From Polytrichum commune (Eukaryota > Streptophyta > Polytrichopsida > Polytrichales > Polytrichaceae), in the NCBI GenBank assembly GCA_950295325.1, contig OX485803.1, positions 63,937,554 through 64,001,553 on the forward strand: a stretch of 64,000 nt of DNA. Direction: 5' to 3'. The notes beneath the pieces are model-generated. The model had not been told where the DNA came from. It made no database searches and was given only the letters and a program-made list of their open reading frames with translations. Each line of letters opens with the position of its first letter. The stretch's first letter is position 1. This document shows positions 5,345 to 61,731 of the stretch, piece by piece. The translations under genes were made by a program, and so were the position numbers.

Positions 5345-5362
5345 TCTAGTCTAGTCTAGTCT
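5341..5362. repeat. (CTAGT)n microsatellite at the stop codon
   Basis: Four pentamer copies start at the TAG stop codon of the channel gene and run into its 3' UTR. Confidence 0.8.
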
Positions 5363-32207: not shown

Positions 32208-32209
32208 AA

Positions 32210-38551: not shown

Positions 38552-38734
38552 TGCAGCATCCCTTCTGTAGGTTTCTCTGTCGGACTCCAGCTGCCGGACA
38601 AGGGCCTGGTACTGCCTGTAACATGTAAAGAAAAATTCAGGTTTATGTCAAGATGATGTGCACATACATGTGACTTGGCTGCCAAAGAGAGGTTGACTAA
38701 TGGAGAATGTTCAAAGCAAAGTGGCACGGATAGC

Positions 38735-40199: not shown

Positions 40200-41102
40200 T
40201 CATTCAACGTGGGTTGCTTCTTGTGCAATCCGAGCAAGGTTGTCTTTTGCAAAAGTTATGTACTTTTGAGGGATGGACACTGATCCACTATGGTTTTTCC
40301 GTGGTTTCCATGCTATGAATATGGAATCTGTATCTACCCAAGATGGACCGTGCTCAGAATCCACCTTCCACCGAAAGTTAGGGTTTGTATCCCAGCCTGT
40401 ATAATGCCGAATCACATCTTCATTCCTTGCTGTCGGTCGATAGTACTCCACTTGTATCTGTTGAAAATGAGGGCTGGAAGTTACAAAATTGGGTTTGGAC
40501 AAAGCTCTTGCCACCCACACTGGCTTTGCATATGTCTCGTCTCCAGGACGTAAAATGAGCATATAACCTTCATGACAATCCACTGCAATGCGGAAAGATG
40601 GTGGGGGACGACTACTAGCCGGCCCCACGTAATGGTCGTCCACATCAAACTCCTCTCGAACCTCTCCATTTCCCAAAAGACTAGGCTCCGAAGCTTGTAC
40701 ATCGACTCGTGTTTGTGGCCAAAATCCATGCCTCAAAGTATGAGGGCTATCTTGGTGGAGGTCTGCCAAGGCGGCACGAACACGTGTCCAATAATGTATC
40801 CAACTCCCATAACGATGCCAACATGATCCGCCAACATCCGCTATTTTCAAACTCTCCCAATATTGTATGAAGCTTGGTATACCTTTCAAAATATCCTCCA
40901 AATTCTTCATGGCTATTGGCTTGCAAGGCCTAGGCTCCCCATCCGGTAACATGGTCTTTCCATCCGCATCCACGCGCCACACAAGAAGACCCTCCGGCGG
41001 GCTCCAATCTTGTGTCGTGCACAACAACTTGTATTGCATGGCCGGGACACCATCGTCACGCATATAGAAGCGGAATTGTTGTGCCTTCGTATGCCCGATC
41101 AA
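40200..41102 (-). pseudogene. C-terminal segment of an unassigned transposase-like gene
   Basis: An open frame of ~300 codons: LLCTTQDWSPPEGLLVWRVD, KNLEDILKGIPSFIQYWESL, then PPSFRIAVDCHEGYMLILRP and IQVEYYRPTARNEDVIRHYT. No domain was assigned with confidence. It lies directly downstream, same strand, of the Cys-rich frame at 41153-42445, with a telomeric-repeat insertion between them, so the two were probably one gene. A catalytic core expected between the Cys motif and this part is not present. Confidence 0.55.
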
Positions 41103-41131
41103 TCGGTGAGCTCCACTTCGAATATAAGGTT

Positions 41132-41166
41132 CTAGGGTTTGGGGTTTAGGGTTTAGGGTTTAGGGT
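41132..41166. repeat. Interstitial telomeric repeat (TTTAGGG)n
   Basis: About five degenerate to perfect TTTAGGG units sit between two halves of the transposase-like gene and introduce stops in all relevant minus-strand frames. Such tracts typically mark telomerase- or template-assisted repair of a double-strand break. Confidence 0.9.
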
Positions 41167-42445
41167 GTGCCTCTTGCATGTTTACGTGCTTGAAATAGTT
41201 CAATTGATGCGCTGCATATGACTCGGTACCCATCGTGTGTGCATCCCGGAGGCGCTTCAACTTCTCGCAATTAGAGCACCTGGCAAATTTGTCCCCTCGT
41301 CTTTTTGTAATGTATTCGCTAAAGTTTTGTTTCTTAATTGCACTCAATTTTGACAATGAAATTGGCTCCAACCCAATCTTCTCGCCAACTGCATTCACGT
41401 CCAACAATATGTCTTTCCATTTTGTGCCTTTGGGAAGAACTTTCTCCACAACCTTTTCACCGGTTGTGAGCGTGCGTGTTTTGTGCGGCATTGCATCGGC
41501 AAGGGGGACAATGATGGTTGCTAGAGTGGCCGTTGCTTGCCTTGTTGCTTCCCTAGGCTTCTTTAAACCCACATTACCATGGTGACGGGACCGGCGGCCT
41601 TCCTTGGCATAAGCAGCTTGTCGATAAAAGTCCGCTTTCGACACACCGTGAATGGTGTACCATGCCTTACAACACACGTCCATGCTTTCAATGGTGATGA
41701 CCTTGCGACCCATCCCATTCACATGTATCGCCCTATGGACATCAAGTTTTCTTGTGGATCTTAGACGGAAATCTCCAAGCCACATTTCTTCGCGGATGGC
41801 CTTCAATTTATCCCTTGGAAACAATTGGCAACAACGATGCACACAACAATCCTTTGTGGCAACTTCTCTAATGGACTCCTCCCCGAGCAACCTTTGACGT
41901 TTACAATCAGTTGCAGACGGAGCAGGACGTGCCAATGTATCGTACTTTCTTTGACCCTTGCGCGGCCGCATGTTTGCTTGCACCTCCTTTTCGATTTGCA
42001 TGTGTCGTTGCTCATGTTCATGCAAGCTAACTCCATCAATTGTGACATTCCTCAACGGCCACCTGCGGAGGGAGAACCTATGAGTGGGATCCACCTCGGA
42101 ATGAACGACCGACTCCAATATGACAACCCCAACGTCCTCGGTGCCAAGCGGGTTTTCATCAATGCAATCTTGCGGATGGGTGTTACGGCAAATCCCCTCC
42201 GCCACAACAACTCCACTATCGTTAAGAAGTATCACCTCCAAATTCATCCACGAAGCCCTTGAAAGTCCCGTACATTCAACAATGGGACACTGCGGTACGG
42301 AAGACGAAGGTAAATCCAAATGATCTTCATCCGCACTGTCAGCCATAGTAGCCTCCCCGACAATGTCTAAGTCATCATCAGATGCAGATGGCCAAGTGGC
42401 CATGTCATCAGATGACCAATCCCCAATTTCACTAAACCCATCCAT
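41153..42445 (-). pseudogene. Unassigned Cys-rich transposase-like protein, N-terminal part
   Basis: ATG at 42445. After an acidic N-terminus come CCVHRCCQLFPRDKLKAIRE, the basic WLGDFRLRSTRKL, MDVCCKAWYTIHGVSKADFY, RRSRHHGNVGLKKPREAT and, near the end, FARCSNCEKLKRLRDAH. A Cys pair block, a C-x-x-W..IHGVS helix-turn-helix-like segment, RG/HGN and a second CxxC are seen in several uncharacterised eukaryotic transposase-like families; I cannot name this one. The frame runs into the telomeric tract. Its leader and promoter were cut off by the Mutator-like insertion: they lie beyond 54184, with a palindrome array and TATA box. Confidence 0.55.
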
Positions 42446-42446
42446 T

Positions 42447-42456
42447 CTGCCTACAC
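42447..42456. repeat. Left target-site duplication of the Mutator-like element
   Basis: CTGCCTACAC, identical to 54184-54193. It lies two bases upstream of the ATG (42443-42445, minus strand) of the transposase-like gene, so the element landed in that gene's leader. Confidence 0.9.
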
Positions 42457-42540
42457 GAGGGAAGCTATCTTATGAGCGATGAGCAGTAAGCGGTGAGCGG
42501 TGAGCAGTAACACATGAGCAATGAGCAGTAACATATGAGC
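42457..42540 (+). repeat. Left MULE terminal inverted repeat
   Basis: Starts GAGGGAAGCTATCTTATG and continues as GAGCGATGAGCAGTAAGCGG-type hexamer-like repeats (TGAGCR), similar to the reverse complement of 54118-54183. Confidence 0.85.
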
Positions 42541-42786
42541 AATGAATCCAAATTTAGTAAAGACACACGGGTTTAGGGTACACAACCACAATTTTGACAA
42601 ATTAATTGCATATTTTCAATTGTAAATTGCAAGTATTTTAAATGAAACATAAGTGAAAGGGCCCTATTGCCATGGATCATTTAAAGCACTTTCAATACAT
42701 TGCTGATTTTTATTATAATAATCCAAACAAATACATGTAATTTATTGACATCCTTATACATGTAGTTACAACCAACACTTGTACAA

Positions 42787-42906
42787 CTACTCACATTCTA
42801 CAACAGCAGCAAATTCAAGTAGGTGCATAACCTCATTATACGTATATGTAGGTGCCATAATTGTGAGCCACTCAAACCGCTCACGGGTTGAATTAAGGCC
42901 CACAAT
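42787..42906 (-). other. Duplicated alternative last exon of the MULE transposase gene
   Basis: A phase-0 exon of 39 codons plus TAG with a good acceptor (TTTTTGTAG|ATTGTG at 42907). It ends APTYTYNEVMHLLEFAAVVE..., a diverged copy of the transposase C-terminus at 43362-43433 (APTYTYNEVMRLLELAGIVE...). A potential donor AAG|GTGGAT at 43460-43463 in the main exon is in the same phase, so splicing to this exon would replace the last ~32 residues. The duplication offset is about 575 bp. Confidence 0.55.
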
Positions 42907-42959
42907 CTACAAAAACAAGGAAATTAGATAATAGAAATTGTCAATATGTAGGTAGTTAC

Positions 42960-43170
42960 TAGGTTTTGAGACATCCGCCTGTGGATGCGAGTTGTGTAAG
43001 AGACTGGTATTAGGTCTGGATCAGCCCGGGTTCGAATCCGGTTGGTTACATTGACTGGTGCTATCCCAAATTGAGCTAGTGATAAAGAAGGAATAATCTA
43101 TAGGCGGATACCAAGAAGACATTACTACGCGGATGTGCGTAGAATCTTCTTAATTATTTTTTATTTTTAG
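42960..43170 (+). repeat. tRNA-derived SINE-like element in the MULE 3' region
   Basis: An exact Pol III B box GGTTCGAATCC at 43029-43039 is preceded ~45 bp upstream by an A-box-like GCGAGTTGTGTAAGAGACTGG. A non-tRNA body and an A/T-rich tail follow. It lies between the two copies of the transposase gene's terminal exon. It does not fold as a complete tRNA. Confidence 0.55.
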
Positions 43171-43361
43171 AAACTTGTTATTATTTATCCGTATGAATAA
43201 ATGAAACCGCTCACGGTTGGGTGTAGTCTAAATAGAAATGAAGTTACTGAATCATTTGAAATACTTTCAGTCCATTGCTAATTTTTATTATAATAATCCA
43301 AACCAAAACATGTCATTTATTGACATTGAAATATATGTTGTTTAATAGAACACTTGCAATA

Positions 43362-46300
43362 CTACTCACATTCTACAATACCAGCAAGTTCAAGTAGTCG
43401 CATGACCTCATTATAGGTATATGTAGGTGCATGAATGAACTTGTCACTCTCGTAATCCACCTTGCACAAAAATCTAAACACATAATAAAGATGTTTACAA
43501 TACACCCATTTTCCTTTCTTTCCCAATGCATGAGAGGACATTTTCGTGAAATCCGGGCATGTGCAATGCGGGATGTCGCCAATTGTCACATGGTAGGTGA
43601 TATCCTGCTTGGAGACAATGTTGATTATCACTCCAAAGCCCGGATATGGAATGGCAGTGATCCCAACCACATAGTAACCCTCCATGAGTCCGGCACTCTC
43701 CCATTTGTTTTTGTGATCCGCTAGCGGTGCTGTTGGATTACGACGCACTGTCTTCCCAAACCTGAATGTAGGGTGGGCATCCGGGTTTGGTGGTATAGAA
43801 AAATACGAGCGAGGGATGGGGAGAGTTGCAATTGTTGAAAGCCTACGACGAGGGGACAATGCCTCCCTCTGCTGTAGTTGAAATCCAGCATCTTCAAGTG
43901 CCAAAACCTCCTCTCTCAATAGATTGGTACCTATCTTCACCGGCCACGTGTTGGGTACTATAGGCCAGTCCAACACATATTTCTTTTTACTGCCACTCAC
44001 ACAACGCTTGATGTCGTCAGGGCAAAACCAAAATTCATACTCCACATTGTTGGGAGATCGAAATTCCTTCCTGAGCCCTTTGTATGTTGGGGCAGGTGTG
44101 CCATGTTTCCCAGTCCCGATTTTAGCATTGCACATAGTCCATGTAATGGCCTGCAGTGCCCAACATCGTTTGGCTGAGTTGGGTGGTAATCTTGCAATGT
44201 GCCAGTTGGAAGCAAGACAATCAGTCTCTAACACGGATGTAGTATGAGCCACATCATGAATTGCAGAACTCAACGATTCCTCTATGCGTTGACGAGTTGC
44301 TCGGGTGTTGGGACGAGGAATGGAATAGTTCACTTTGTCGGGTCGATGAGAGTCACAATCAGCACCCGGTGGTAGGTTGAGTTTGCGTTTGGTAGAACCA
44401 AAGAGTTCTGACCCTTCCAATGCACAATCTCTAGTGTTGACGTCTTCTGCCCCTGGGTAAGACTTCATGGCATCAGCCAACATTTTTGGATCTCCACACC
44501 TGGCAGCTGCTTTGAGTTTCAAGGAGGCCGAATCAGGACCTTTACCATCAGACCCCCCTTTCAACCATGTCCGGTAATTTGCAATTTGCATGAAGGCACG
44601 GATCATGTCGTCCACTGTAGCTTCATATAAACAAGTCATCTTGTTGCCGGACTGTTGGAGCCATTTGTTGTGTACAGTCTCTGCAAGGTTGCATGTTGGC
44701 ATTTCTGCACGCTCTTCTATTGTCATATCCTATGAACAACACACAAATACAAGGATAAGACAAACATAAGATAGATTATATATCTAGGTTTGGGTCGTTC
44801 GACCCAAAATGGCTGCCACGTTTGGGTCGAACGACCCAAACTGCCTACAAGGTTTGGGTCGAACGACCGAAACTGTTTGCGCAATTTGGGTCGTTCGACT
44901 CAAACTGCATACAAGGTTTGGGTCGAACGACCCAAACTGCCTACAAGGTTTGGGTCGAACGACCGAAACTGTTTGTGCAGTTTGGGTTGTTCGACCCAAA
45001 ATGGCTGCCACGTTTGGGTCGAACGACCCAAACTGTTTGTTGTTTGTTGTGTACAGTCTCTGCAAGATTGCATGTTGGCATTCCCGCACGTTTTTCTATT
45101 GTCATATCCTATGAACAACACAGAAAAACAAAGATAAGAAAAACATAAGATATATTACATTGAATAATGAAGTTTGATATGTACTTACAAGTAGCATATG
45201 GCCACCCCATTGTCTGTAACGAAAGTGCCAAAATCCCAACCACTCTGAAAGGCCAAGGATGCCTTCTTCGGAGGCAGCTCCAGATGACAACCACCAAGAA
45301 CGAATCACATGGTACTTGGTCTCAGCGTCGTCCATTGTTTTCGCGTCTTTGTAATCCTTGCATATTTGTTTGTGTTGAAATTGCAATGATGGTTTGATAT
45401 ACTTTTGGGTCACCTTATCCAAGCTTGCGGACCAATGGAAAAGACATGTACGCTCACGTGCAACCATGGGTAGACTTGGATCACCATCCCCGTAAATCGC
45501 CCTCACCGCATTCCAATTAGCTTGAGCACTATCAGCCATAAATCCTTTGAAGTTTACGTTTGGTACACCATTTTCTGCCATGACAGCATTCAAATTTTCC
45601 CAAAAGAGAATTTGTGCTGCACCATCTTCAGATTGCATGTCAGAACACGCAATAGTCAACACTTTACAGTATCGACTGTCGTACACATGGCAAGCCATGG
45701 TCGTCCAGTCCTTCAAACGTTTGACATGGTCAAACATAATCCACGAATTCTCCATATCCCCACCGACTTGCATCCTCTTCACAAGCTCTACACCACTACC
45801 TGGAAGGTCTACAGACATCTTGAAAATAAACACTTTGTCCTTTGACTGCCCTGGGAACCGACTACCATGGACGAATTTGAAAGCAGAGTGGTCTTTGAGC
45901 GCCATAATACTATCCATAGTTCCCATTCCACTACGCAAAAAACGCTTTGATCCAGATACAAAGTTACGACAATTTGGAGACGCAAGAGTGCTGAATTTGT
46001 CCATGACGACCTCTAGGGATGAACCAACCAAGTGATGGCCTTCGACATTTGCGGGAGATTTGAGAAGGTAATCGGCCAAGAATTGTTTGCTCGCCGCCAT
46101 AACTATGGCTGAATTTTTTGCTGTGGGTGTTTTCAATACCTCATTTGCAACGCATTGGTATGCCATGTCCAATGATTCACGGCATGTGCCATTGGCCACA
46201 GGGTGATCATGTACACCAAGATGAATGCAAGCCCTGGACATTCCAACGGATGTGGACTGGATGTATATGATTCGAGCATTACACAAAGCAATGCACACAG

Positions 46301-47324
46301 GTGTGGAACGACATACCTTACACTCGACAGTGGACTTAGTAGGGGGAACAACACCCACAGCAAATGGGATAGGAGTTGAACCGGCCCATTCAGTGTTGTT
46401 CCGGAGGCCCCCATTGCGATTCATGTAATCACAGTAGTCATTATGACATTCGAGATGACCAGCACAAGTAGAGCGCCGGAAAGACAGTTCAAAGTCATTT
46501 TGGATATTCGTGGTTTTGGTGGTGCACCAAGGGTGACCGTCGCACATCTTGTCCATGCCGTCCATTGAGCGACCATACGTATTTGGAGCTTTGAGTGCCA
46601 CAGGAGGCAAGAGAAACAAAACATCACCATTAAAAGAAGATGGTAAGTACTTGACTTCACGAACATCTATACTGTCAAAATCAATGGATGCAAGATCGGA
46701 CTTTGATCTTTTTCTTGACTTTGTCAGCTTCAAGGCATCAATCATAGTCAACCCTGTAGATGAAGGTGAAGGGTGTAGTGGAGGACGTTGAGAAGGTGAG
46801 ATTTGGGGAACCACCTTCTTGTACATAAGACCGCAAGGGGATTTGGCTACATGTATAGGAAGTTGGGAAGGAGTAGAATGAACACTTCTAAATGGAAATG
46901 GCGATGTGTTTGAAAGATCAATAGATGCACAAATGTCATCTTCTGAATCTGATAGCACAAACACACTATCATCAAGGGGTTCCACCTTAACAGGTGCGAT
47001 AGAGGGAATTTGAACTGTGGATGTACCGGATTCATTTGTCAAAATGACAGTTGAAACTTGCATTTGAGACTCAGAAAGTCCTATCACCCTAAATGAACCA
47101 GGTCCTAGGATCCACATAAAACCAACATCAGTTCTATTTTTTGGAACCAAAATCGTTTCATACACCTCTCCATTTGCAGAGTACATCTCATGCTCTAAAT
47201 ACATGGTTCCTATCTGGAGGTTGAATCTCAAACTAAGTAAATCCTCTGAAACACTCACATGACCACCATCTTGGAGTGGCAAGATGAAGGGAACAAAAGA
47301 TCCATGAGCTCTAATGGTAGCCAT
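43362..47324 (-). CDS. MULE transposase with GCM-like zinc finger and SWIM finger, two exons
   Basis: Transposase expected to cut and paste the surrounding element. Exon 1 is 47324-45189 (712 codons, donor CTT|GTAAGT). Exon 2 is 44729-43362 (acceptor TTCATAG|GATATG), phase 0, total about 1,167 aa with no stop. Residues ~123-130 (FVLSDSED) look like a SUMO-interacting motif. Residues ~260-375 form a Cys/His-rich GCM/WRKY-like finger (CAGHLECHNDYCDYMNR, CKVCRSTPVCIALC, CIHLGVHDHP). The DDE region follows with SWIMFDHVKRLKDWTTMACH, GFMADSAQANWNAVRAIYG and RTCLFHWSASL. Exon 2 carries a SWIM finger (CTCPDF...YCKHLYYVF). The gene is divergent from the ParB/methyltransferase-like gene, and a ~520-bp spacer could be a bidirectional promoter. 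Its intron holds an array of eight palindromes. Confidence 0.9.
44665..45157 (-). repeat. Duplicated exon-2 acceptor region flanking a palindrome array
   Basis: 44665-44780 and 45044-45157 are near-identical direct repeats 379 bp apart without indels. Each includes the intron end, the acceptor TTCATAG|GATATG and the first ~20 codons of exon 2. The distal acceptor (45109) would read into the palindrome array and soon hit a stop, so only the proximal one gives the full transposase. The array lies exactly between the copies. Confidence 0.85.
44789..45032. repeat. Palindrome family 1 array: eight copies at exact 32-bp steps
   Basis: Copies of TTTGGGTCGNNCGACCCAAA begin at 44789, 44821, 44853, 44885, 44917, 44949, 44981 and 45013, a constant period of 32 bp: 20-bp palindromes with 12-bp spacers. 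The central pair is TT or AA. Some arms carry single changes (CGACCGAAA, CGACTCAAA, GGGTTG). Spacers fall into a few related types (CTGCCTACAAGG, CTGTTTGYGCAR, ATGGCTGCCACG). Confidence 0.95.
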
Positions 47325-47846
47325 AGAAAATCAAAAGAACATATGAACAATACATCACAAGAATATGGGGTGAATGTTACTTTTGTATAGAGTTGTGTGA
47401 GGAAATGAATGGAAATGAAAACGTGTGATACAATAATGGATGGAGATGAAAGCGTGTGATACATAGCATCTAATAATACAGAAGTGGACATAACACAATA
47501 ATAGTCAGAGAATATTTACGAGCAAGATATACACAAAATGGCGTCAAATACTAAAAATATTGGTAGAAATTTAAAATATATATGTGTGGACTGACGTAGA
47601 TGTAGAAAGAATTAAAATTGGTTGGAAAAATAAATTATTGATCATTATGAATAGAACAAAGTAGGTGTCAGAAAATTTTGGCGGATATAACAAAAATAAA
47701 CACATAATGACAAACGCGTCGAAATATCTCGCTCATTGAACGCCAATTACAACATGTGATCATAATATACGCCGGATTTTGTGAGATAGATACATTGGAA
47801 GAATAAATGATAGTACCTGATAGAAAACATATCATAGACACCAACG
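47325..47846. promoter_or_regulatory. Putative bidirectional promoter between the two MULE genes
   Basis: A 522-bp AT-rich gap between the transposase ATG (minus) and the upstream basic exon at 47847 (plus). No firm TATA element was assigned; the call is from position only. Confidence 0.4.
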
Positions 47847-48128
47847 ATGGTGGACGATGTAGAGAGAACACCCGTGAGGCCGAAGAGAAGACGTAGGAAA
47901 GCTTTGTATTTCACTTCCGAGAAAAAGAGATTCAGACTGAGTGTGGGAAAGAAGAATGCAAATAAGAAAGGGAAAAGAAACTTGTTGAGTATGGTAGAGG
48001 AAACTGTGAAGACACTGGATTTTGATGCGATGGAGGATGATGAAGGTGCAAAGAGCAAAGAAGATGTAGACGATCGTGTATCAGAGTCCGAATTGAAGAC
48101 GGGTTCAAAGAAGATGACAAACAAAAAG
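47847..48128 (+). CDS. Possible first coding exon of the ParB/methyltransferase-like gene
   Basis: ATG to a strong donor AAAAAG|GTAAGT gives 94 codons in phase 0. The peptide is highly basic then acidic (PVRPKRRRRKALYFTSEKK, NLS-like; EDDEGAKSKEDVDD). The next acceptor, TTGTTTTAG|GACGAATCA at 50158, is also phase 0 with the downstream ATG, so splicing 48128 to 50159 would extend that protein by 97 residues. The 2.03-kb intron would then hold all palindrome arrays of this half of the element. Alternatively transcription starts at the TATA box near 49503 and this exon is separate. Confidence 0.5.
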
Positions 48129-48253
48129 GTAAGTCAGTTCAACGTTCACATAATTTGATAGTGCATAAGTTGTAAGTTAGGACGGAGAACCTTGTACGTT
48201 CACTCACATGTCCTGTAGTAGCAATTTATAGAGGTTAGAAATTGGAGAGGAGA

Positions 48254-48843
48254 AACCCTATACGTTAATGCACATGGTATATAACAAAAATTGAGGAAGG
48301 CTAGAAGTCAGGAGGAGAACGCAGAGGGTTTATAAGAGCAACTTAGGAGTCGAGAAGTTGGGAGGTAAAACCCTATACGTTAACGCAGAGGGTTTATAAG
48401 AGCAACTTAGGAGTCGAGAAGTTGGGAGGTAAAACCCTATACATTAACGCAGAGGGTTTATAAGAGCAACTTAGGAGGCCAGAAGTTGGGAGGTAAAACC
48501 CTATACGTTAACGCAGAGGGTTTATAAGAGCAACTTAGGAGTCGAGAAGTTGGGAGGTAAAACCCTATACGTTAACGCAGAGGGTTTATAAGAGCAACTT
48601 AGGGAGGCCAAAAGTTGGGAGCTAAAACCCTGTGCGTTAACGCACAGGTTTTGTAATAGCAACTTAGGAAGGCCAAAAGTTAGGAAGGGAAACCCTGTGC
48701 GTTAATGCACAGGGTTTGTAAGAGCAACTTAGGTGGCAAAAAGTTGGGAGGAGAAACCCTGTGCGTTAACGCACAGGATTTGTAAGCGCAACTTAGGAAG
48801 GCCAAAGTTCGGAGCTAAAACCCTGTGCGTTAACGCACAGGGT
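48254..48843. repeat. Palindrome family 2 array: ~10 copies of a ~62-bp unit
   Basis: Tandem unit ...AAGTTGGGAGGTAAAACCC... containing a palindrome. It grades from CCCTATACGTTAACGCAGAG on the left to the perfect CCTGTGCGTTAACGCACAGG on the right (48689-48843). The core GTTAAC and right arm are the best kept. Isolated perfect copies lie at 49341-49362, 49404-49430 and 49920-49947; the last is a 28-bp perfect palindrome extended by AGA/TCT. Confidence 0.9.
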
Positions 48844-49500
48844 TTGTAAGAGCAACTTAGGAACGCCAAAAATTGGGAGGTAAAACGACTAGGAGAGCCT
48901 AAAAGTAAAACAAATATCTATTGTATGAATTTAAATCGATATTCAGAGCGTAGGACCAAAAAAACTATTCAAAACGGGGTTAGAATGCAAGAAATGAGAA
49001 ATATGTCTACTCAAGTATTCATGCAATACGTTATAGGAGCTAGAAAATGACACAAAATAGCATAATTTTTTTCTTGCCCCGAAACCCAAAATCTACGAGG
49101 TGGCCCAAAACAAGGAAATAGATAGAAGAATGAGAAAAGAAAATGATTTCAAACCAAAAAAAAATATGAGAAGAATTTTTAGCTACGGAGATTTAGATAA
49201 TATAGCATATTTTTGTTTTTTTTTTTGGACCCCATTAGCATTTTTTCCAGATTTTACAAGTTTTGGCAAATCTACCAATTCCAGACAAAGTTTTTTATCA
49301 AATTCAAAAAAAAAAGTTTTTTATAAAATTCATGCCTCGGCCCTGTGCGTTAACGCACAGGCCTTATGCGCTAACGCACAGTGGCCTCAAAGTTGCCAAC
49401 GTAGACCCTGTGCGTTAACGCACAGGGTCTACGCTGACAACTTTCTAGCGGCTATGCAGGGCCACGAAGAGCCACGCTAAATATGGCTGCAGGGACGAGT
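48844..49500. other. MULE non-coding spacer with single family-2 palindromes
   Basis: AT-rich DNA before the TATA-like site. It holds the palindromes at 49341-49362 (followed by an imperfect copy at 49362-49381) and 49404-49430. The open frame at 49100-49480 is low-complexity and crosses the palindromes, so it is not supported as a gene. Confidence 0.5.
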
Positions 49501-49502
49501 AG

Positions 49503-49600
49503 TATAAATTGCCACACCCCCAAAGCATTCAGTCTTTTTTCTCTCATCTGTCGGACCTTAGCTCGACGCTGCAAGCTCTCTCATCTACAGGTGCAGTACA
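49503..49600 (+). promoter_or_regulatory. Putative core promoter and leader of the ParB/methyltransferase-like gene
   Basis: TATAAAT at 49503-49509 is followed 65 bp later by GCTGCAAGCTCTCT (49568-49581). A possible leader donor CTACAG|GTGCAG lies just before the palindrome array. The same TATA plus GCTGCAAGCTCTCT arrangement (61-bp spacing) occurs on the minus strand at 55422-55348 ahead of the 42445 gene. Confidence 0.6.
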
Positions 49601-49664
49601 AGGTTTGTTTGTACTTTCGTGATGACAGGGTATTTGCGCATATTCAGGCGTAAATTGCGGACAG

Positions 49665-49880
49665 TTTGGGTCGGTCGACCCAAACTGTGAGCATGGTTTG
49701 GGTCGACCGACCCAAACTGTGCCCCTAGTTTGGGTCGGTCGACCCAAACTGTGAGCATGGTTTGGATCGACCGACCCAAACCACGCGTAGAAAGTTTGGG
49801 TCATCTGACCCAAACTGGCTGTAGGCGGTTTGGGTCGCTCGATCGAAACTGGGTGGACAGTTTGGGTCGTTCGACGCAAA
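49665..49880. repeat. Palindrome family 1 array: seven copies at 32-34-bp steps
   Basis: Copies start at 49665, 49697, 49729, 49761, 49795, 49829 and 49861. The first three are perfect with central GT or AC. The rest have one to three arm changes. The array lies in the leader intron of the gene starting at 50168. Confidence 0.93.
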
Positions 49881-50167
49881 CCTCGCGCCCAACTTTTGTA
49901 GACATGTAGTTGGACACACAGACCCTGTGCGTTAACGCACAGGGTCTGCCCTTGTAGTTTTGGGGTGAGCGGCCACCGTAATCGTACAATATTTAGAGAT
50001 GTAAATGGCAATGTGTAGAATAATTTTTGTCATTTTTCCCTGTGTTCGTGGTATTATGTTGTTATTGTTGTTGCTATTGCTGTTGGTTTTGTAATGTTAT
50101 TGCTAATGTGTTGCTACTGGTTTTGGATTATTTATGAAACTTATTTCATTTGTTTTAGGACGAATCA

Positions 50168-53100
50168 ATGGATTTAGAGAGAACGACTCTTATTTCGACT
50201 GATGATGATTGCACAATGCATTCAACTCAAGATCGTCCATCTCAACAGGTTCATCATCATCAGGATATATCGTCAAATCTTCATAATAAGAAAAAGAAAA
50301 AAATAAATGAATCCCTAGATGATTTTGATTCGGATGAAGATAATGATGGTGACAATAAAACTTATCAAGAGAAAGTGTGGGAGCTTACGAACAAACGAAA
50401 GGTCAATTCCACTTCCACAATTTCCTCAATCCGTGCTGGACCTAATGCTCGCTTGCGTGTACCCTTATGTCGCATGGTTCCTATGCCGATTTTGCGTCCT
50501 GCTTTGAAGGGTGACATTACTAAATTGGAGGCTGATTTTTTTAATGGTTATCGTGATGGTGACCGTGTGTTTTATATATCGGCCACCGATTCTAAGGGAA
50601 ACTTTCAATTCGTGGATGATGAGGTTCGCGCATCTTGGAGCCCAAATTGGGCTCAAGCCAATGCCCTGTTTGAATCTCAATTGGATACAGATTTGTCATT
50701 GACGTCATACAAGAACAAGATGTTTTTTATATGGGATGGAAATCACAGATTTTTTGCTTGGAAAAATTATATTGACCGCGTATATACCGAAGATTATGAA
50801 CGTCATGTCTTCGTGGATTCTATCATTTTGGCGCCCGAGCTTGACGACATTCCAAGTTTGTTGACTGCTATGCATGACATCAACAAGTAATGTTCTTACC
50901 TATTTTTTTATACTTATTTCTAGTTTATATTTTGTTATCCAAATTATATCATCATGAATCTAATCAATTTAAAATTTTTTTTAGGTCAACCGAAAATTCT
51001 CACGTATCCACCAATTTGGTGCATACTTTATATCGGATGCAAAGTATAGGCACCATGCCTTTGACTTCCTTCAGAAAGCAACTGGATCCAAAGAATTATA
51101 AACGATGTGAGGAGAAGTCCGTTGAAACTTGGTATTCTTTGACACGACCACTTTTTTTGGATTACATGTACAGTGTAAGTTCTTCTACCATTGCTAATAT
51201 GTGCCTTATGTTTATTCATCTTCATTTTACATTACATCTATATGTACTTATAAATATTGACTTTTGTTTGATTTTTCAGCAAGAACTTGCTGAGGCTAGC
51301 GATATTGCTCTCAACCAGTACAATGAAACTCATCCTCTTGAACGGACATCAGACGGAGTTTCAAAAGCAATGTCCGTAGCTGTCAACAAAAAACGTGCAA
51401 TGTTATCTTCTAGTTTTACGAAACAACTAGCGATTGCCGACATCAACCTTACCTCTGCTTTCCTTGAAGAAGTTAAGCACCATTGGGGTTCATTTTCGGT
51501 GCCTGAAATGCTACAAGAGAAACTTCATCGTGTTGCTGTCAGTAATGTGGATTCAGAAGTCAAAGTTGGATGGCTCAAACTTTGGAATGGCAATAGATTT
51601 GACAAAGATGCATTGCACTTCCCGAAATCGCCCCTTTCTGATTCTGCACTTGATGATTGGTTATCAAAGTCTACATATTGGGCACAGTTGGAAAAAAAAG
51701 CTATCGAAGAGCTTCAAAGTATTCTTTCATCTCCTCTTCAGTTGCCTGCAGATGTGCCTACTCTCTCCGAGTATATCCAAACCTGGAAGTTTGCGGCTTT
51801 CAATTCAATATTCTATCGTGAATTCCAAAGCGGAAAAGTTAAAAAACACAACGGTTGGGATGAGCAACCTAATATTGATCTTGCTATGAAACGTGTATTA
51901 TACAGGTACAACCTAATCTTATTATTTTTTTGATTTTTTTAATTCCATTTGTCAAATTGTCATGGAATATTTGACTTACAATATTTTTGTGTGTAGGTAT
52001 TTTCGATATGTTTTGATTCCACATAAATGCGTTATAGGGGAACCTCGTTTTTTCCCAAATTGGCGTGACACTGGTGCAGGAGATTCATGCATGTTCACTA
52101 CTGAAATTTGTTTGGATTGGTCGCTCCCACACTATGAGGATTGTGGTTGGTATCTTGATTGTCCTAAGGATGCATGTCCGTCAAGTGAGAAGACAATCCG
52201 TCAGATAAATGATGCTAAAAATGTGGATCCTCGTGATACTGCAATTTTGCAAGCACAAATTGTGCAGCTTAAACTTAGAGAGCCAGAACCAAAAGAGACA
52301 AAACGTCGTAAGAGGAAACATGTTCCTGAAACCAAAATACAAGGTCAATCGGAAATTTCACAACATGAAGAATTGCTTGTTCTTTCCAATGATTTGGATA
52401 AGAATCCACTTGGAGGCGAAAGTTCAAAGTCTGGGTGCGATGTATTGGAATTTCATTACTCCAGCACCTATGACGCTATTCATCGTGCGCCAACGGATAT
52501 TTTGAGAAAAGAGTTATTCATATTGAAGAACTTTCTCACGCTCTCGTTTGCTCGATCTACTGCTGTCAAGAACAAGTCTAAAGGGGTGGATTTAGGCCCT
52601 CCTGAGTGGATCCAATGGCGGGAATTTATTGAAAACGTAAGTGTTATTGTTTTGGAATTTCTTCTAATGTTCTTACTTTCATTTGGGTTTTATTTTGTGT
52701 CTTATATTGTGATATGTTGTGGTATTTCAGTTCAATGACAATCGCGAATTTCATGTCATGGGAAGTCCGACTCCCTTTGCCGTTGACTTGGTTTTTCTCC
52801 AATTTCCCGACGGTCTTGATTTCAACCTCTCCAATAAACCTGCTGAAATTCCTCTTTGGAATAAATATGACAAGAACTGGATGGTTGCAACAATGTCCTT
52901 GTGCAAGTCCATCTTGTCTGATGATGGCGTCCTCATAGTATTTTCTGCTATCGATATGCAAACCAAGAAGGTTTTGAATTCAACCTTACACAACGGCAAC
53001 ATGAAAGTTGTTAGGACTTTTATTTGCCTCAATTCGTACATGGTGTTCAAGGATCCGGAGTCTCCAACGTACACCGTAAGTATAACACATCACAATTGTT

Positions 53101-53986
53101 TCTATTTAATTATTTTGGTGTTATTTGTATTGTATATAGTTTTAACACAATTTATATTTTTTTGTAGACTCCGGCATTTATGGCTCATGTCTTGGTAAGG
53201 GATTTTACTACCACAAAATCCACGAGACAACCAAACTCCACTTTTTTTGGCACTGGATTGAAAAGCAAAAATTTGCTTTTCAATTTTGTGGATGAAAAAA
53301 ACATGCTTCTTCAAAAATCGGGAAGACCTTGGAGGGGGCCATATCAAAAATCGCCGCGTTTTTTTCAAGATCTTATTGAATTGTTTACACCATCGAATGG
53401 ACGCGTTGTTGATTTGACGTGTTCCACTGGAGCTTCTATCCTAGCAACACGCGCATGTGGCAGACATCTTCTTGCATTTGAGGGTGATAATGACATGTTT
53501 GAGCACATATTGAAACCGCTTTTGGAAAAGGTTTTGAAAGAGGGGTCATCTAAGGAGAATATACAAGATCTCACAAAAGAAGATGATGACCTCTCGGATG
53601 AGGAGATGCTTGAATTTGAGTGTGAGTAAGTTTTGATACAATAAATTTTTATTCAATTCATTCGTTTCATTCAATTCATTGGTTCATTTTTATTTCTTCA
53701 CATTATTTACATGTTTCATCGATTTGATTTCAGGAATACGATTGGAAAGAGGACATGTCTCCCGTTTTGGGCACATAGACAATTCCTACGAAGTCCAAGC
53801 CGTAGCCCGCGTCTCCCATCATATGCCGAGAATGTTGCAATTGCAATGTTGAATCTCGAAGATTCGGATCCAAATGAAGAATCTTGCTATAGTTCCAAAA
53901 TCAATTCGCAATGCAAAGGTGCTCGAATATATATAGATGACGAGGCAAAAGATAGTTTCATGTCTAGTGCTACTACTGATGAATAA
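50168..53986 (+). CDS. ParB-like plus DNA N-methyltransferase-like fusion protein, seven exons
   Basis: Exons 50159/50168-50886, 50985-51174, 51280-51905, 51997-52636, 52731-53075, 53168-53625 and 53734-53986 all have GT..AG borders and matching phases. They give 1,076 aa from ATG 50168 with no stop. Residues ~40-45 are a Lys run (NLS-like). Residues ~186-200 read FFIWDGNHRFFAWKN, like the GE/DGxHR box of ParB/Srx-fold nuclease and partition proteins. Residues ~735-815 and ~900-950 resemble a permuted (beta-class) DNA N6A/N4C methyltransferase: VDLVFLQFPDG at the DPPY position, SLCKSILSDDGVLIVFS after it, then KSPRFFQDLIELF and RVVDLTCSTGASILAT...GRHLLAFEGD as the AdoMet-binding motif. DPPY is replaced by QFPD and the glycines are reduced, so catalysis is doubtful. 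It may be a DNA reader or helper for the MULE. The domain assignments are by eye. Confidence 0.7.
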
Positions 53987-54117
53987 ATTTTTGGACTTCA
54001 TGTTGTTTATCCTTCTCAAGCCTCTTATTACTAAACCCTAAAATCATCATTTTTAAGGCCACAATTCCACGGTTATAGGATATTGGTGGCCCTATTACCA
54101 AAATTTTCATCTTCCTC

Positions 54118-54183
54118 ACTGCTCATAAGTTACCGCTCATCGCTCACCGCTCATTGCTCACCGCTCATAAGATAGCACTCCCC
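54118..54183 (-). repeat. Right MULE terminal inverted repeat
   Basis: Tandem GCTCAYYGCTCA-type units ending CGCTCATAAGATAGCACTCC, the inverted counterpart of 42457-42540. Confidence 0.85.
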
Positions 54184-54193
54184 CTGCCTACAC
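54184..54193. repeat. Right target-site duplication of the MULE
   Basis: CTGCCTACAC, identical to 42447-42456. Confidence 0.9.
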
Positions 54194-54384
54194 ACATGAA
54201 CATTGAACATTGTCAAAAAATCACAAAAATTGTAGGTTCAAATCGAAGACCACAAAAACCATCATATATAAACAAAATTGCAAATACTCAGTGCTCATAC
54301 AAGTTCATATGACTAATATGCCATTGGGTTCGTAAAGGTTTTGGATGGCCAGTGGCCACACTGTCATCCAGATCCCATCCACAC

Positions 54385-55200
54385 TTAGAGGTTGGGTTTG
54401 GGTCGAGCGACCCAAACCTTTTGGGAGGATGGGTTTAAGGTCACGACAAGGAGCACCCATACTTAGGGGGCTGGGTTTGGGTCGAGCGACCCAAACTTTT
54501 TGGCAGGATGGGTTTAGAGTCACTCCAGAGAGCACCCACACTTAGAGGGCTGGGTTTGGGTCGATCGACCCAAACCTTCTGGCAGGATGGGTTCAGGCTC
54601 ACTAAAGACAACACCCACACTTAGAGGGCTGGGTTTGGGTCGAGCGACCCAAACCTCGAGGCAGGATGAGTTCAGGCTCACTACACACAGCATCCACACT
54701 TTGGGGCTGGGTTTGGGTCGACCGACCCAAACCTTTTGGCAGGATGGGTTCAGGCTCACAACAGTGAGCACCCACACTGTAGGATTGGGTTTGGGTCGAC
54801 CAACCCAAACCTTTTGGCAGGATGGGTTCAGGCTCACAACAGTGACCACCCACACTGTAGGGCTGGGTTTGGGTCGACCGACCCAAACCTTTTGGCAGGA
54901 TGGGTTCAGGCTCACAACAGTGAGCACCCACACTGTAGGGCTGGGTTTGGGTCGATCGACCCAAACCTTGAGGCAGGATGGGTTCAGGCTCACAACAATG
55001 AGCACCCACACTGTAGGGCTGGGTTTGGGTCGATCGACCCAAACCTTGAGGCAGGATGGGTTCAGGCTCACATCAGTGAGCACCCACACTGTAGGGCTGG
55101 GTTTGGGTCAATCGACCCAAACCTTGAGGCAGGATGGGTTCAGGCTCACAACAGAGAGCACCCACACTGTAAGGCTGGGTTTGGGTCGACCGACCCAAAC
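54385..55200. repeat. Palindrome family 1 array: eleven copies in a 78-bp tandem repeat
   Basis: Units of 78 bp (...CACACTGTAGGGCTGGG, palindrome, CCTT..GGCAGGATGGG...) run from about 54385 to 55200. Palindromes start at 54397 and then every ~78 bp to 55180. Central pairs are AG, AT, AC. Right-hand units are nearly identical and left-hand ones more diverged. The array lies outside the MULE, in what was the leader of the 42445 gene before the MULE inserted. Its long open frames on both strands come from the repeat. Confidence 0.95.
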
Positions 55201-55347
55201 AATTCCGCAAAATCCGCCTATTTATTCGGGTGATTCTCTATTAATCTATATATAACCTATTTGGAACAACTGAACTCGTAGATATTTGTTGTAATTAGCT
55301 GCTCATGAATGGAAACGTACACAAACCGTGTATTACAGCTCCAACTT

Positions 55348-55422
55348 AGAGAGCTTGCAGCAATCTCAGGATTGGGACATGAAAGAAAGAACCAGCATTT
55401 GGGGGGGTTGGGCTCTTTATAC
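55348..55422 (-). promoter_or_regulatory. Putative core promoter of the 42445 transposase-like gene
   Basis: On the minus strand TATAAAG (55421-55415) is followed by GCTGCAAGCTCTCT (55361-55348), matching the arrangement at 49503-49581. The gene it would have driven is now about 11.7 kb further away because of the MULE insertion. Confidence 0.55.
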
Positions 55423-55429
55423 TACCCGC

Positions 55430-56777
55430 CTCCACTTTGGGCATCCTCTTTGGATGCCTTTCCCGCCTGGTCTCCTTTGGACGTTAATTCAAACCTTCTG
55501 ACTCAATTTCCCGCTTCTTGTCAATAATAGACAATGTATATTTAGCTTGGCTCTTCGTTGCCCCAACCATCAAATGAATAATTCAACATATATTATTTAA
55601 AGTTGTTACCACCCTAACTTGGTCAACACTATTCTTCAACTCTTTCATAATTAGTTTTATACATGAATACACCACCACCTTCCCTATTGCCATCTCCTTT
55701 CTCCTTTTATCATTGTTGTATTTTTTTCTCACATCCTTACTAATACTAAATTCCTATATGTAACTTCCATATATCACCACAGTGGATATTTAGTGTTTGA
55801 GTTTACATTTAATGTTACTTATTCTCATAGGGTTAGTAATAGGAAGTGTATGCGTTCGTTTTAAGTGTATCAAACACTAACTATCATATAACTAAAAAGG
55901 ATATAAAGATTTTGATACACTACATATGAACGCATACACTGAATACCAATAACCCTGTGACAATATGTAAGATTATATCTATTAAGGGGTTTTACTCTAC
56001 TTGTAGTCAAACATTATGGTATATTTCAAACAATATATTGACAAAAGATGTGCATGTATTACAAAACTTCATATACTAAAAGTCACTAAAAGTCACTAAA
56101 TATAATAGTTAATGCAATTACTTACACTCTCACATGAGGACTTATATTTTGAAAAAAAAAATTAATGCCATGACAAACTTGAATAATTTGGCCAACTTTC
56201 AATTTCCGCTAGTTAAAAGAACATCTGTTGTGTTGTAATGTGTGCACCCAATATTGCTTCATCCTCAAGGCTCCAAGTGTGACAATAACCTAGTACCTAT
56301 GTGGAAGTCATTAATGGAACCATAAACCACAAATGACATTTGGCACATTCAATGTTTCAATGATGTTTGAACCTATCGTGAAGTCCCTTGAACTCTAGCA
56401 ATGTGTGTGAGCAAAACATGCAAAGTTCAAAAGGTATGTCCTCATATCATTCACAACATGAAATCTACCTTAAATTAATATATAATATTTCACTATTCCA
56501 AATAACATGTTAACATGAACAACATCCTATCTATTATAATCTAGTTCTTATGCTCTTCTTACCAGGTGACAAGGTTATAGGTTAATATTGTATCACCTAC
56601 TTGTGAGCACAATATCATTTATTTCCTTTAGTGCGTTCATTCGTGAAAAACCACACATCCATCTTTCACGTTTGTGAATTAGGATGTTGTGATGACATTA
56701 TACATTTGTATTGGAAACTACAAGCACCAAGGCCCATGTCATTTGACCTATGTGCCATCCAGTTATGGTTTGTGTTG
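55430..56777. other. AT-rich DNA, no gene seen
   Basis: No coding region or clear element ends were recognised. Confidence 0.4.
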
Positions 56778-58189: not shown

Positions 58190-58383
58190 GTAAGCAATTT
58201 GCATCAGTGCACACAATTTGCATCATTCCCTTTAGGTTCCTGTTACATATACAATGCATAAGCATTGTATATGTTGCCGAAGCATTAAACATGCATCTGG
58301 AAACACAGTAGTTTGGGGAGACGACCCAAACTCATATTAAAATATAATAAATATTTGAATTGCAGCCTAAAATGAACTAAATG

Positions 58384-59245
58384 TTTGGGTCGTTCGACCC
58401 AAACATTGCAGCATCTTGTTTGGGTCGAGCGACCCAAACATTGGAGCCTCATTATGTTTGGGTCGCTCGACCCAAACATTACAGGGAGAAGAACAAACCA
58501 CATTGTAAAATATAAAAGAACTTTGAAAATGAAGTAAATGTTTGGGTCGTTCGACCCAAACATTGCAGTCTGAAATGAATGGGTTGAGCTACCTAAATTT
58601 GCAGCCTCATCATGTTTGGATCGCTCGACCCAAACATTACAGGGAGAAGAACAAACCACATAGTAAAATATAAAAGAACTTTGAAAATGAAGTAAATGTT
58701 TGGGTCGTTCGACCCAAACATTGCAGTCTGAAATGAATGGGTTGAGCTTCCTAAATTTGCAGCCTCATCATGTTTGGGTCGCTCGACCCAAACATTACAG
58801 GGAGAAGAACAAACCACATTGTAAAATATAAAAGAACATTCAAAATGAAGTAAATGTTTGGGTCGTGCGATCCAAACAATGCAGTCTGAAATGATTGGGT
58901 CGAGCTACCTAAATTTACAGCCTAACATGTTTCGGTCGGTCGACCCAAACATTACACGGAGAAAAACTAAAACACATTGTAAAATATAAAAGAACTTTGA
59001 AAATTAAGTAAATGTTTGGGTCATTCGACCCAAACATTGCACTCTGAAATGAATGGGTTAAACTACCTAAATTTGCAGCCTCATCATGTTTGGGTCGCTC
59101 GACTCAAACATTGCAGGGTGACCACCTAAACCACAATTTAAAATCTAAAAGATCTTTTAAAACGACTTTGAAAATTAAGTAATGTTTGAGTCAATCCTCC
59201 AAATGTTAAATGCACATTGCAATACTTTGGGTCGATCGACCGAAA
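58384..59245. repeat. Palindrome family 1 array in a 158-bp tandem repeat
   Basis: All copies lie inside the leader intron 58190-59273. They start near 58384, 58419, 58457, 58541, 58615, 58699, 58773, 58857, 58930, 59014, 59089 and 59226. From 58541 on, the unit is ~158 bp with one TT-centred and one CT- or GT-centred copy. Between them lies a recurrent decayed copy (GGGTTGAGCTACCTAAA). Several arms carry single changes. Confidence 0.93.
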
Positions 59246-59273
59246 CTCACAGTTTCGATTTCTTGGATTGCAG

Positions 59274-61731
59274 ATGGCCCCTAAAAAGAGACCAGGTGAA
59301 AGGTGGTTCATGCTCGCGCCAGACCATCTTTGGCAGGAGTATGAAACTCCACAGGACGATTCTTACGTCCCAAAAGATGGCGTCGTTCTGGCATGGTCCG
59401 TTCAGGTGGTGAAGGCATCCATGTTCAAGCTGCTATTCGTGGTGAAGGTGGGGACCCACGAGCAGCACACCTGGGCAACACTGACGGGATGGGAGGTTGC
59501 GTCTGTCCAGTCTCTCGGGGACTATGTAGACGTCATACTGGAGAACTCCGCCGTGCAGAACGTCCACATGTTCATGCACCAGTTCTCCGAGCCCTTCGAC
59601 CCCCTGTACGCCAAGGAGACCTGCGTCGACCCTGAAACCATACAACCGGAGGCTATATTCATAGATGGCAGTGTAACCAACACGAAGGTTGCGAGCAGGT
59701 TCACGAAGTTAAAACATGCCATCACGGTTCTAAACAAGGCGCTGCAAAGCAAACCCAAGACACAACAGCCTGTGAGGCGGAAGGCAACGACGGAAGAAGG
59801 CGCAGGGTCCTCAAGACCACAAACTGTGAGGAAACCGCGGGCGGTCCCTGTGGAGTCGAGACGGACAAGTACTACAACAACGCCGGCTGACAGCGAGACG
59901 CCAACGCCATCAACAAGCCGTCAAACGACCCCTTCCAAAAGGAGAAGAGAGTCATCGGTGATGACTGACGAGCATGTTTCCCCGGAGCTCCGGATGCCGA
60001 AGCCTGGCCAGGAGGTGGATGCAGGCGAAATACAAAAAATAAACACCAACTTCGAAACAAAATGCCTGCACTGCTTCTTCATGGGCAGGGACTTCAAGTT
60101 CGAGGTCAACATTGCGCAGTGCCACCTTGTGCCACCCGAGAAATGTGTCCGAGCCAAGGAGGACGCCTACGTCGACTGGATGGTCGCTTAAATCTTGGGC
60201 GGGCAGTTCAAGGACGATAGGCAAACGATTGTTGTCATGCCACAAGGGTTGAAGAGAATGCCGACGCCTGATATGTGGCCGACAATCTCCAAATGAGACT
60301 TCTGGTTGATTGACGGGCAGCACAGTGTGGAGGCATCAAAAAAAATCCAGCTGATGACCGAGTGGAACGACCCGAACAACCAGAAGGAGAAACTAAAAGT
60401 TTGGAAGGCTTTGGTGGTTTGGTCGGACAACGAGACGGTCCTCAGCGACATCTCCAGGTTCTTCAACATGGGGAACAAAAAGAGGGCCTATCAGGCATCG
60501 TGGATCAGAAACATCATGGCCTCGAGGGAGGTGTGGGAGTTTTATGGCAGGCCTCCCAGGGAAAGGGAGAATGCTAAAGATAAGAACCCCAAATGGGAGG
60601 TGAGTATGTTTGGGTCGATCGACCCAAACTGCTGTTACATTTGTTATTCCATGAGATGTTGTCTAACATGAATTGTTGGCTACGTGTGCAGGACTTCAAA
60701 TATCAGATGATCAATAAATTCTCCTTGATAGACAATGCTAGCCACAAGCAAAAAAATATAATGAGTTGCGAGGAGAAATATATTTGATCACCGCGTCCGA
60801 CTCCGTGTGGAGAAAATGGAGGAGTGTTTTTGAAAAACACGAGACGGGGGACCTTATGGACCCCGACACCGGCATGCTCTTCAACCAGACTATGCGCTTC
60901 AAGCAAATGAAGCCTCTGGTGAGGGAATTCTTCAGAGCGCTTCAAGGTCTTTCCGAGACAGAGATGGGAAAAGCGGCGTCCCACATCCTACACGTGGAGA
61001 CGACGGCGAAGAGATGCTGGGTCCACCCCAAGACCGTCTTCACCAAACCCAAGATCTTCGTCCCTTCATGCTACACCATGAAGGAATGGACGGAGAACAA
61101 GAAGAAGAAGACGACCATCGTCCAAGAGTTGCACAAGCTGGTGCCTGAGAAGAAGCTCATCGTGGACGGAGAGGTCGACGAGGCGCACTGGAGGGCCTTC
61201 AAAGCCGAATATAAGTTCACCAGTGCGTCCATGGCGGCACTCATGAGGGAGGCGGGAGACGACTTCCTCAGATCCAAGCTCGTGAAGGGGGGGAGGAACC
61301 GGGTGCTTCCCGAACACTCAGCGCGGGCCTTCTCCAACTTCATAAAGGAGAAGAAGATCGTCAGTTTCGAAGGCGATGCGCAATTCAACATGGTCACCGT
61401 CGAGCCTCTCAGGATCCAAGGTTGGCCGGGCTCTGAGTCCAGGAAGGCGATCAGGACTAAAGCCGGGGACCGCTTCCCCTTCGGAATGATAGACTTCAGG
61501 AATATCCCTGGAGCCTCATTCGAGGGGACTATGAGCACCCCTTTTTACGATGCTTTCTTGTCGAAGTTCGTGGACTACGCCAGCCCCAAATTCAGGGAGG
61601 TCGACGTCTGGCTCTGGATTGTCGAGGACAGGAGGGCAGAGCAGGTTTACGAGATCGTGCGCAAATTGCAGCCGGAGTATGCTGTGAACCCTTTGAGTGG
61701 TCCACCACTCTGCGGGATCACTTTTAGTTAG
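59274..61731 (+). pseudogene. Broken relative of the ParB/methyltransferase-like gene (DGQHS protein)
   Basis: Leader intron 58190-59273 ends GGATTGCAG|ATG, so translation starts at 59274 (MAPKKRPGERWF). The N-terminal ~110 residues are unassigned, then comes a Ser/Thr/Pro- and Arg-rich linker. An in-frame TAA (60189) and TGA (60294) follow, then DFWLIDGQHSVEASKKI (60297-60347), a ParB/DGQHR-like box. Intron 2 (60600-60691, GAG|GTGAGT ... GTGCAG|GAC) carries one perfect family-1 palindrome. A frameshift near 60765 precedes a long C-terminal part to 61731 with FGMIDFRNIPGASFEG and VDVWLWIVEDRRAEQVYEIV, which could be a degenerate methyltransferase core. Coding DNA is GC-rich. The similarity to the 50168 gene is inferred from motif and architecture only. 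Confidence 0.6.
60608..60629. repeat. Single perfect family-1 palindrome beside a 5' splice site
   Basis: TTTGGGTCGATCGACCCAAA at 60609-60628, flanked by G and C, starting 9 bases inside intron 2 of the broken DGQHS gene. This copy is solitary, not in an array. Confidence 0.95.

Follow-up and report, generated by a model that had tools for sequence, protein, structure and literature searches.

The stretch of DNA analysed here, hereafter the window, comprises 64,000 nucleotides of the Polytrichum commune genome (C1:63937554-64001553, on contig OX485803.1). It contains an 11.7-kb transposable element, at 42457-54183, that carries beside its transposase-like gene a second gene on the plus strand (50168-53986), referred to below as the cargo gene. 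The cargo protein joins a domain with a predicted ParB/sulfiredoxin (Srx) fold to a C-terminal half that appears to derive from DNA methyltransferases, and a palindrome, GTTTGGGTCGnnCGACCCAAAC, is arrayed in modelled introns of both genes. We tentatively propose that this protein is a site-specific DNA-binding regulator of its own element.

The element has terminal inverted repeats and a 10-bp target-site duplication, CTGCCTACAC, which occurs in the window exactly twice, at 42447-42456 and 54184-54193, immediately outside the left and right ends. Local alignment of the two ends delimits the terminal regions at 42457-42555 (beginning GAGGGAAGCTATCTTATGAGCG) and 54115-54183 (ending GCTCATAAGATAGCACTCCCC). 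The imperfect inverted repeat between them, 42464-42525 against 54115-54176, is 87% complementary (alignment score 94). A target-site duplication of 8-11 bp is a hallmark of Mutator-like elements (MULEs), whose transposases possess a DDE domain and often a SWIM zinc finger. The transposase-like gene, on the minus strand at 43362-47324, has two modelled exons (47324-45189 and 44729-43362) and an open spliced frame of 1,167 amino acids, in which DDE-like residues and, towards the C terminus, a SWIM-like CxCx(n)CxH motif can be discerned by eye. A Pfam scan of this protein gave no MULE match at E up to 1, and its SWIM match (PF04434, E = 0.076-0.1) lies below the cut-off. The element can be assigned to the MULEs on the strength of its duplications, its terminal repeats and the motifs read by eye.

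The element has spread recently. A DNA search with cargo exon 6 across the genome (407.8 Mb, 64 contigs) recovered at least 40 copies, the window copy included, which are 98-100% identical and lie on contigs C1 to C7; the count is a lower bound, being the 40 best of 149 candidates scored, and the copies studied further were taken from the top of that list rather than at random. Both ends were recovered in three of ten other copies, each flanked by its own perfect 10-bp duplication (taacttcgat, ccgcaacctc and cattggagat). The left end is present in five of the ten other copies where the stretch expected to hold it was read, and the full right end in seven of ten. Of 20 other copies, 12 have a transposase segment where it should be (96.6-99.5% identity), so that the gene travels with the transposase and is true cargo; in the remaining eight the fragment was not found within the 700 bases read, either through a shift in array length or through deletion. 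The element looks autonomous as well as recently mobile. The first-pass annotation of this DNA had placed the cargo gene on a MULE and suggested a search for homologues linked to MULE termini, and the duplications, terminal repeats and transposase linkage in other copies agree with it.

The cargo coding sequence is modelled as seven exons with 1,076 codons and a stop; its splicing, like that of the transposase gene, is modelled from DNA throughout. Exon 1 (50168-50886) encodes the ParB/Srx-like domain, which begins at about residue 85 and contains the sequence DGNHR (50735-50749). Exon 2 (50985-51174) lies downstream of that domain. Exons 3 (51280-51905) and 4 (51997-52636) form a middle region, the latter with a basic KRRKRKH stretch; a distant homologue described below, L006, has pieces collinear with exon 3 and is partly collinear with exon 4. 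The methyltransferase-like domain is divided between exon 5 (52731-53075), which holds the motif-IV half with QFPD at 52800-52811, and exon 6 (53168-53625), which holds the motif-I half with DLTCSTGAS at 53411-53437. Exon 7 (53734-53986) encodes the C-terminal tail. All six introns are GT-AG, 91-108 nucleotides long and 17-28% GC, against 40-42% GC in the exons. Among 5,000 single-base shuffles of the coding sequence the mean number of stops was 68 and the minimum 42. The earlier description of an intact seven-exon gene with agreeing splice phases and no stop is borne out.

Exon-sized queries detected relatives in public sequences: 88 matches to exon 1 (36-93% identity) and 30 to exons 5-6 (49-96% identity). 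Since such relatives exist, together with full copies in the same genome, the frame is not a product of chance. A full-length query against 5.8 billion proteins, of which the best 8,000 candidates were scored, gave no relatives; we attribute this to the length limit of the search, outside which the public relatives, being single-exon open reading frames (ORFs), would fall. Likewise, the full-length sequence had no match in the PDB, the C-terminal exon query had no relatives in IMG/VR or in GTDB contigs, and the exon-1 alignment found none in IMG/VR and a single locus, L006, in GTDB contigs. Queries with the transposase and with gene 2, a neighbouring gene described below, also gave no relatives in IMG/VR.

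AlphaFold2 and structure comparison support a ParB/Srx fold for the exon-1 domain. DGNHR, at residue 190, constitutes a nucleotide-binding box of the D/EGxHR type. All ten of the other copies read from the genome keep it, and [WC][DE]GNH is found in 61 of the 88 exon-1 database relatives; the other 27 stop short of the box or carry an altered one. Family matches among 63 sequences were weak, namely DndB in 4 (Pfam, best value 0.0059) and phrog_1033 in 14 (PHROG, best value 0.044). The only match of the exon-1 profile in the PDB, to ribosomal eL24 (E 0.0045), spans 49 positions that precede the box and was read as chance; Pfam and NCBIfam matches below threshold, NTR2 among them, were dropped as low-complexity or chance.

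The C-terminal half appears, from profile matches, to be related to the beta-class N6A/N4C DNA methyltransferases, with their permuted motif order. PHROG_67 matches residues 774-970 (E 1.5e-7), while PF01555 falls below the cut-off (E 0.02). Compared pairwise with five phage methyltransferases, the profile reached 93.8% over motif I; after L006 was added, pairwise hhalign reached a probability of 97.3% (E 1.7e-11, 200 columns), and in that alignment VDLVFLQFPDGLDFNLS pairs with VDLVLTDPPYGIDIDLS. AlphaFold2 of exon 6 alone yielded no usable fold (pLDDT, the per-residue confidence score, 44). The position of the catalytic DPPY motif is occupied by QFPD in the window copy and by DVPE in L006; DPPY is found in none of the 16 exon-5 paralogues readable among the 30 exon 5-6 matches, 15 of which have Q[FI] and one NF. 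Because QFPD replaces DPPY and all 16 readable paralogues lack it, methylation activity has probably been lost, and the domain is likely a decayed relative rather than a working member of the class. DLTCSTGAS or near variants are retained in the exon-6 paralogues. The readings of DGNHR as a ParB/Srx box and of the C-terminal half as a beta-class order with DPPY changed to QFPD, both made by eye in the first-pass annotation, have thus been upheld.

The cargo coding sequence is under purifying selection, in line with the earlier impression that the gene is maintained. The whole gene was read in ten other copies chosen from the exon-6 match list. Pooled differences to the window copy amount to 490 synonymous and 355 nonsynonymous changes, a ratio of nonsynonymous to synonymous differences per site (pN/pS) of 0.19; with each variant counted once there are 161 and 189, respectively, and the ratio is 0.31. 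Because the copies share ancestry, the changes in either count are not independent of one another. The cargo is fully intact in two of the ten (L071 and L074). L074 is intact though only 93% identical to the window copy over the gene (99% over exon 6), the differences being 123 synonymous and 64 nonsynonymous.

When up to five substitutions are allowed, the window contains 40 occurrences of the palindrome GTTTGGGTCGnnCGACCCAAAC, and five single-base shuffles of the window contain none. The sites are limited to 44788-45033, 49664-49881, 54396-55200, 58383-59246 and 60608. On the gene models they fall within the intron of the transposase gene, the leader introns of the cargo gene and of an outer CACTA-type gene, and introns of gene 2. 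Within the MULE, eight palindromes with a period of 32 occupy the modelled transposase intron (44788-45033), and seven, mostly 32 bp apart, the modelled 5' untranslated region (UTR) intron of the cargo gene (49664-49881). The two MULE arrays have this 32-bp period (about three helical turns) in common, as well as some spacer similarity, while the spacers of the other arrays are unrelated. The end of the transposase intron and the start of its exon are duplicated (44664-44781 and 45043-45160, 91% identical) on either side of the array. Three other element copies examined have 8, 13 and 13 matches in the cargo leader, where longer arrays may be cut by the stretches read, and two have 5 and 8 palindromes in the transposase intron. 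Twenty 10-kb samples along C1 (200 kb) contain no GTTTGGGTCGnnCGACCCAAAC at up to three substitutions, and IMG/VR contains no exact match. The 10 kb adjoining the window (L008) has six, at its positions 901-2590, which may belong to a further bearer element adjoining the window.

The arms of GTTTGGGTCGnnCGACCCAAAC are nearly invariant, at 1.4-2.0 bits per position, and the dinucleotide at the centre is free (0.30-0.37 bits). Arm positions differ from the window array at 5, 1 and 5 of 140 positions in three copies, and spacer or centre positions at 27/74, 18/78 and 27/76; outside the arrays the same stretches differ at 34/465, 66/456 and 95/469, the last two being inflated where array lengths differ. 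Greater conservation of the arms than of the spacers is only suggested by these figures, and not in exact terms, because mispairing of repeat units can inflate the spacer values.

A second palindrome family, ACCCTGTGCGTTAACGCACAGGGT-like, forms an array of nine copies, mostly 64-65 bp apart, at 48255-48843, with four more at 49340, 49361, 49405 and 49922; eight occur in the matching stretch of another element copy (L081). Upstream of the cargo gene a promoter or 5' UTR-like segment on the plus strand (49487-49630, GTAGTATAAA...) is followed by a splice-donor-like site. A possible alternative first exon, also on the plus strand, lies at 47847-48128; it is an open frame of 94 Lys/Arg-rich codons with an in-phase GTAAGT donor that could join 50159.

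The strongest sign of a link between the gene and the palindrome is the array at L006 (CADCWO010000058.1). This 4.7-kb contig is binned in a cyanobacterial (Synechococcales) metagenome-assembled genome; since its collinear gene carries spliceosomal-type introns, it is probably eukaryotic contamination. The ParB-like part is 40% identical to that of the cargo protein, and 77 of 275 aligned residues are identical in the C-terminal part. Four TTGGGTCTCGGATCCGAGACCCAA-like palindromes, spaced at 106-109 bp, lie upstream of the L006 ATG, and about 185 bp separate the end of the last one from that codon. Two of the four have exact half-sites, TTGGGTC...GACCCAA. The half-site is common to L006 and the window, although the palindrome centre is 10 long in L006 and 4 in the window. 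Exact pairs arose in 6 of 20,000 shuffles of the contig, a control that ignores how common palindromic arrays may otherwise be. In addition, the database relative P0104 starts with VWVERPKL, a peptide that the window palindrome could encode, directly ahead of residues of exon 1.

The MULE interrupts an outer CACTA-type gene set on the minus strand (37769-42446 and 54194-55480; DUF4218, DUF4216), its modelled insertion point being the 3' splice site of the CACTA-type leader intron. The promoter-like segment of the cargo gene resembles an inverted segment near 55320-55450 of the CACTA-type gene (score 87, against at most 42 for about 200 random pairs); no score above 35 was found in the rest of the window scanned. 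Gene 2 (59274-61731, plus strand) is broken by in-frame stops near 60189 and 60294 and a frame change near 60750. It has a ParB-like DGQHS box, and its leader intron holds an array of the palindrome; its candidacy as a cargo homologue had no statistical support beyond the DGQH box. Farther away, a LINE-like (long interspersed nuclear element) stretch with reverse transcriptase and RNase H (19471-33259) includes a minus-strand ORF, 21686-22450, that matches PCIF1_WW (PF12237, E 5.4e-9, above the cut-off), the family of the mRNA-cap N6,2'-O-dimethyladenosine (m6Am) methyltransferase. This ORF seems to be cut short, since the sequence beyond it looks unrelated. A Bestrophin-like gene on the plus strand (3486-5349; PF25539, E 1.8e-33 and 2.1e-38) is in two pieces, likely those of a host gene interrupted by an intron. 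TTTAGGG-like repeats are also present in the window and point to a host of the plant lineage.

Because a second MULE protein accompanied by motifs arrayed in introns matches the pattern of VANC, the anti-silencing protein of VANDAL MULEs, we propose that the cargo protein is a sequence-specific regulator with a VANC-like, most likely anti-silencing, role exercised through an unrelated protein. We rate this as a possibility a little short of an even chance. The protein would act in trans on its element, its dimers recognizing the GTTTGGGTCGnnCGACCCAAAC palindromes arrayed in the introns of the element's genes. Binding would maintain the expression of these genes, most likely through opposition to host silencing, in the way that VANC does for its elements. 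The methyltransferase domain would no longer methylate but may still aid DNA contact, and the ParB/Srx domain might serve as a nucleotide switch. That the protein binds the palindromes, and that binding counters silencing, are both steps that we infer. An elaboration, which we consider improbable, is that of a domesticated ParB-parS-like module: a nucleotide-gated clamp would load at the intron palindromes, spread and coat the element against silent chromatin, with the retired methyltransferase reused for DNA contact and the palindromes of diverged homologues keeping the TTGGGTC half-site.

It must be noted that several observations weigh against a regulator of this kind. The cargo frame is broken in seven of the ten other copies read, and in one more of them, L073, it is open but has an altered splice acceptor. 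ParB proteins contact DNA through a helix-turn-helix domain, and none was identified in the cargo protein. In L006 the methyltransferase region alone is not recognized by Pfam or PHROGs, and outside this genome the link between gene and palindrome consists of that one locus. As to the palindromes, the arms in the cleanest comparison (C3) still change at about half the rate of their surroundings; the spacer and centre differences may owe something to the mispairing mentioned above, and the likeness of the arms may be due to array homogenization. Moreover, GTTTGGGTCGnnCGACCCAAAC is found outside the element, at 54396-55200, 58383-59246 and 60608 and six times in L008. It is thus not private to the element and could be bound by a host factor or by some other protein.

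This last point leads to the proposal that the palindromes have nothing to do with the protein and are intronic hairpins, or host-factor sites exploited by several transposon families. Apart from the cargo gene, three genes indeed bear the same palindrome in a modelled intron or leader, and the CACTA-type gene has a promoter segment in common with the cargo gene. However, the association recurs in L006, where a diverged palindrome retains the TTGGGTC half-site, and the 200 kb sampled from C1 are devoid of the palindrome; we therefore regard independence as unlikely. Somewhat less unlikely, though still doubtful, is a transposition accessory factor that binds the palindromes or the element ends and assists the transposase with no part in silencing. 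MURB and TnpA are thought to help their transposases in this manner, and the cargo gene is kept under purifying selection beside the transposase of a recently mobile element whose arrays sit within it. Against such a factor, the palindromes occupy modelled introns at a great distance from the terminal repeats, and they recur in neighbouring elements of other types.

An active methyltransferase of altered chemistry, marking the element with N6-methyladenine (6mA) or N4-methylcytosine (4mC), would account for a profile match spanning the whole catalytic domain and for the D...TGAS motif-I region, which is conserved in L006 (where the splice is guessed) and in most of the exon-6 paralogues that can be read. 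This explanation has to contend with the replacement of DPPY in the window copy, in every readable exon-5 paralogue and in L006, and with the loss of part of the motif-I glycine signature, and we hold it to be very unlikely. MULEs are well known for gene capture, and most of the copies read are broken, as would befit a host gene carried passively with no function for the transposon. Yet the gene is complete, with its seven exons, in independent copies; it is intact in two lineages 7% apart at the DNA level, with a pN/pS well below 1, and it belongs to a broad family with the same box. In view of the selection, passive capture is disfavoured and seems to us highly improbable. The preferred reading, a regulator acting through the palindromes, lends itself to direct testing, since the mobile copies are nearly identical, some frames are intact and target arrays are predicted. 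It has long been asked how transposons evade silencing by their hosts, and few protein families that serve this end are known. If correct, our proposal would add an unrelated anti-silencing family to them and would mean that prokaryotic ParB and methyltransferase parts have been reused in a eukaryotic transposon conflict.

In the titles and abstract openings of the literature searched, no ParB-type cargo of a transposon is described, and the main text of PMC6446971 and PMC13317346 mentions neither ParB nor methyltransferase. The order of domains has a counterpart in M.PhiCh1-I, the adenine methyltransferase of Natrialba phage PhiCh1 (L001), in which a ParB-like box (ADGEHR, by eye) likewise precedes a beta-class methyltransferase, and it is with this enzyme that the methyltransferase-like domain of the cargo protein aligns over 200 columns. 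M.PhiCh1-I differs in its active-type DPPY, its length of 419 amino acids, its lack of introns and its identity of about 20% to the cargo protein. Homology between the two ParB-like parts was considered and set aside, since the profile aligns the box only and not significantly.

Transposon-borne DNA methyltransferases are also reported from retrotransposons of dinoflagellates and charophytes (PMC5890265). Those are C5 (cytosine) enzymes in retroelements, whereas the cargo domain is of a decayed N6A/N4C type and resides in a DNA transposon. A further parallel is offered by the TET/JBP dioxygenases, which several lineages of fungal DNA transposons are said to have captured, likely as an anti-silencing device (PMC12730594). 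There, too, a gene related to DNA modification is carried by DNA transposons, but the enzyme family and the hosts are different and the cargo enzyme domain looks decayed. The parallel behind the preferred reading is VANC of the Arabidopsis VANDAL MULEs, to which the cargo protein is likened by description rather than by sequence. The cargo protein is of ParB/Srx and methyltransferase-like make-up, its putative targets are palindromic 22-mers shared with other element types, and its anti-silencing role is an expectation, whereas VANC is reported to bind YAGTATTAY, with loss of DNA methylation (PMC5735166; PMC10398659). In both cases, however, a second MULE protein is accompanied by motifs in tandem repeats in introns or other non-coding parts of the element (PMC5735166; PMC10398659): introns of both VANC21 and VANB21 are described as containing VANC targets in tandem (PMC5735166), and the candidate targets of the cargo protein are arrayed in the modelled transposase intron and in the cargo 5' leader.

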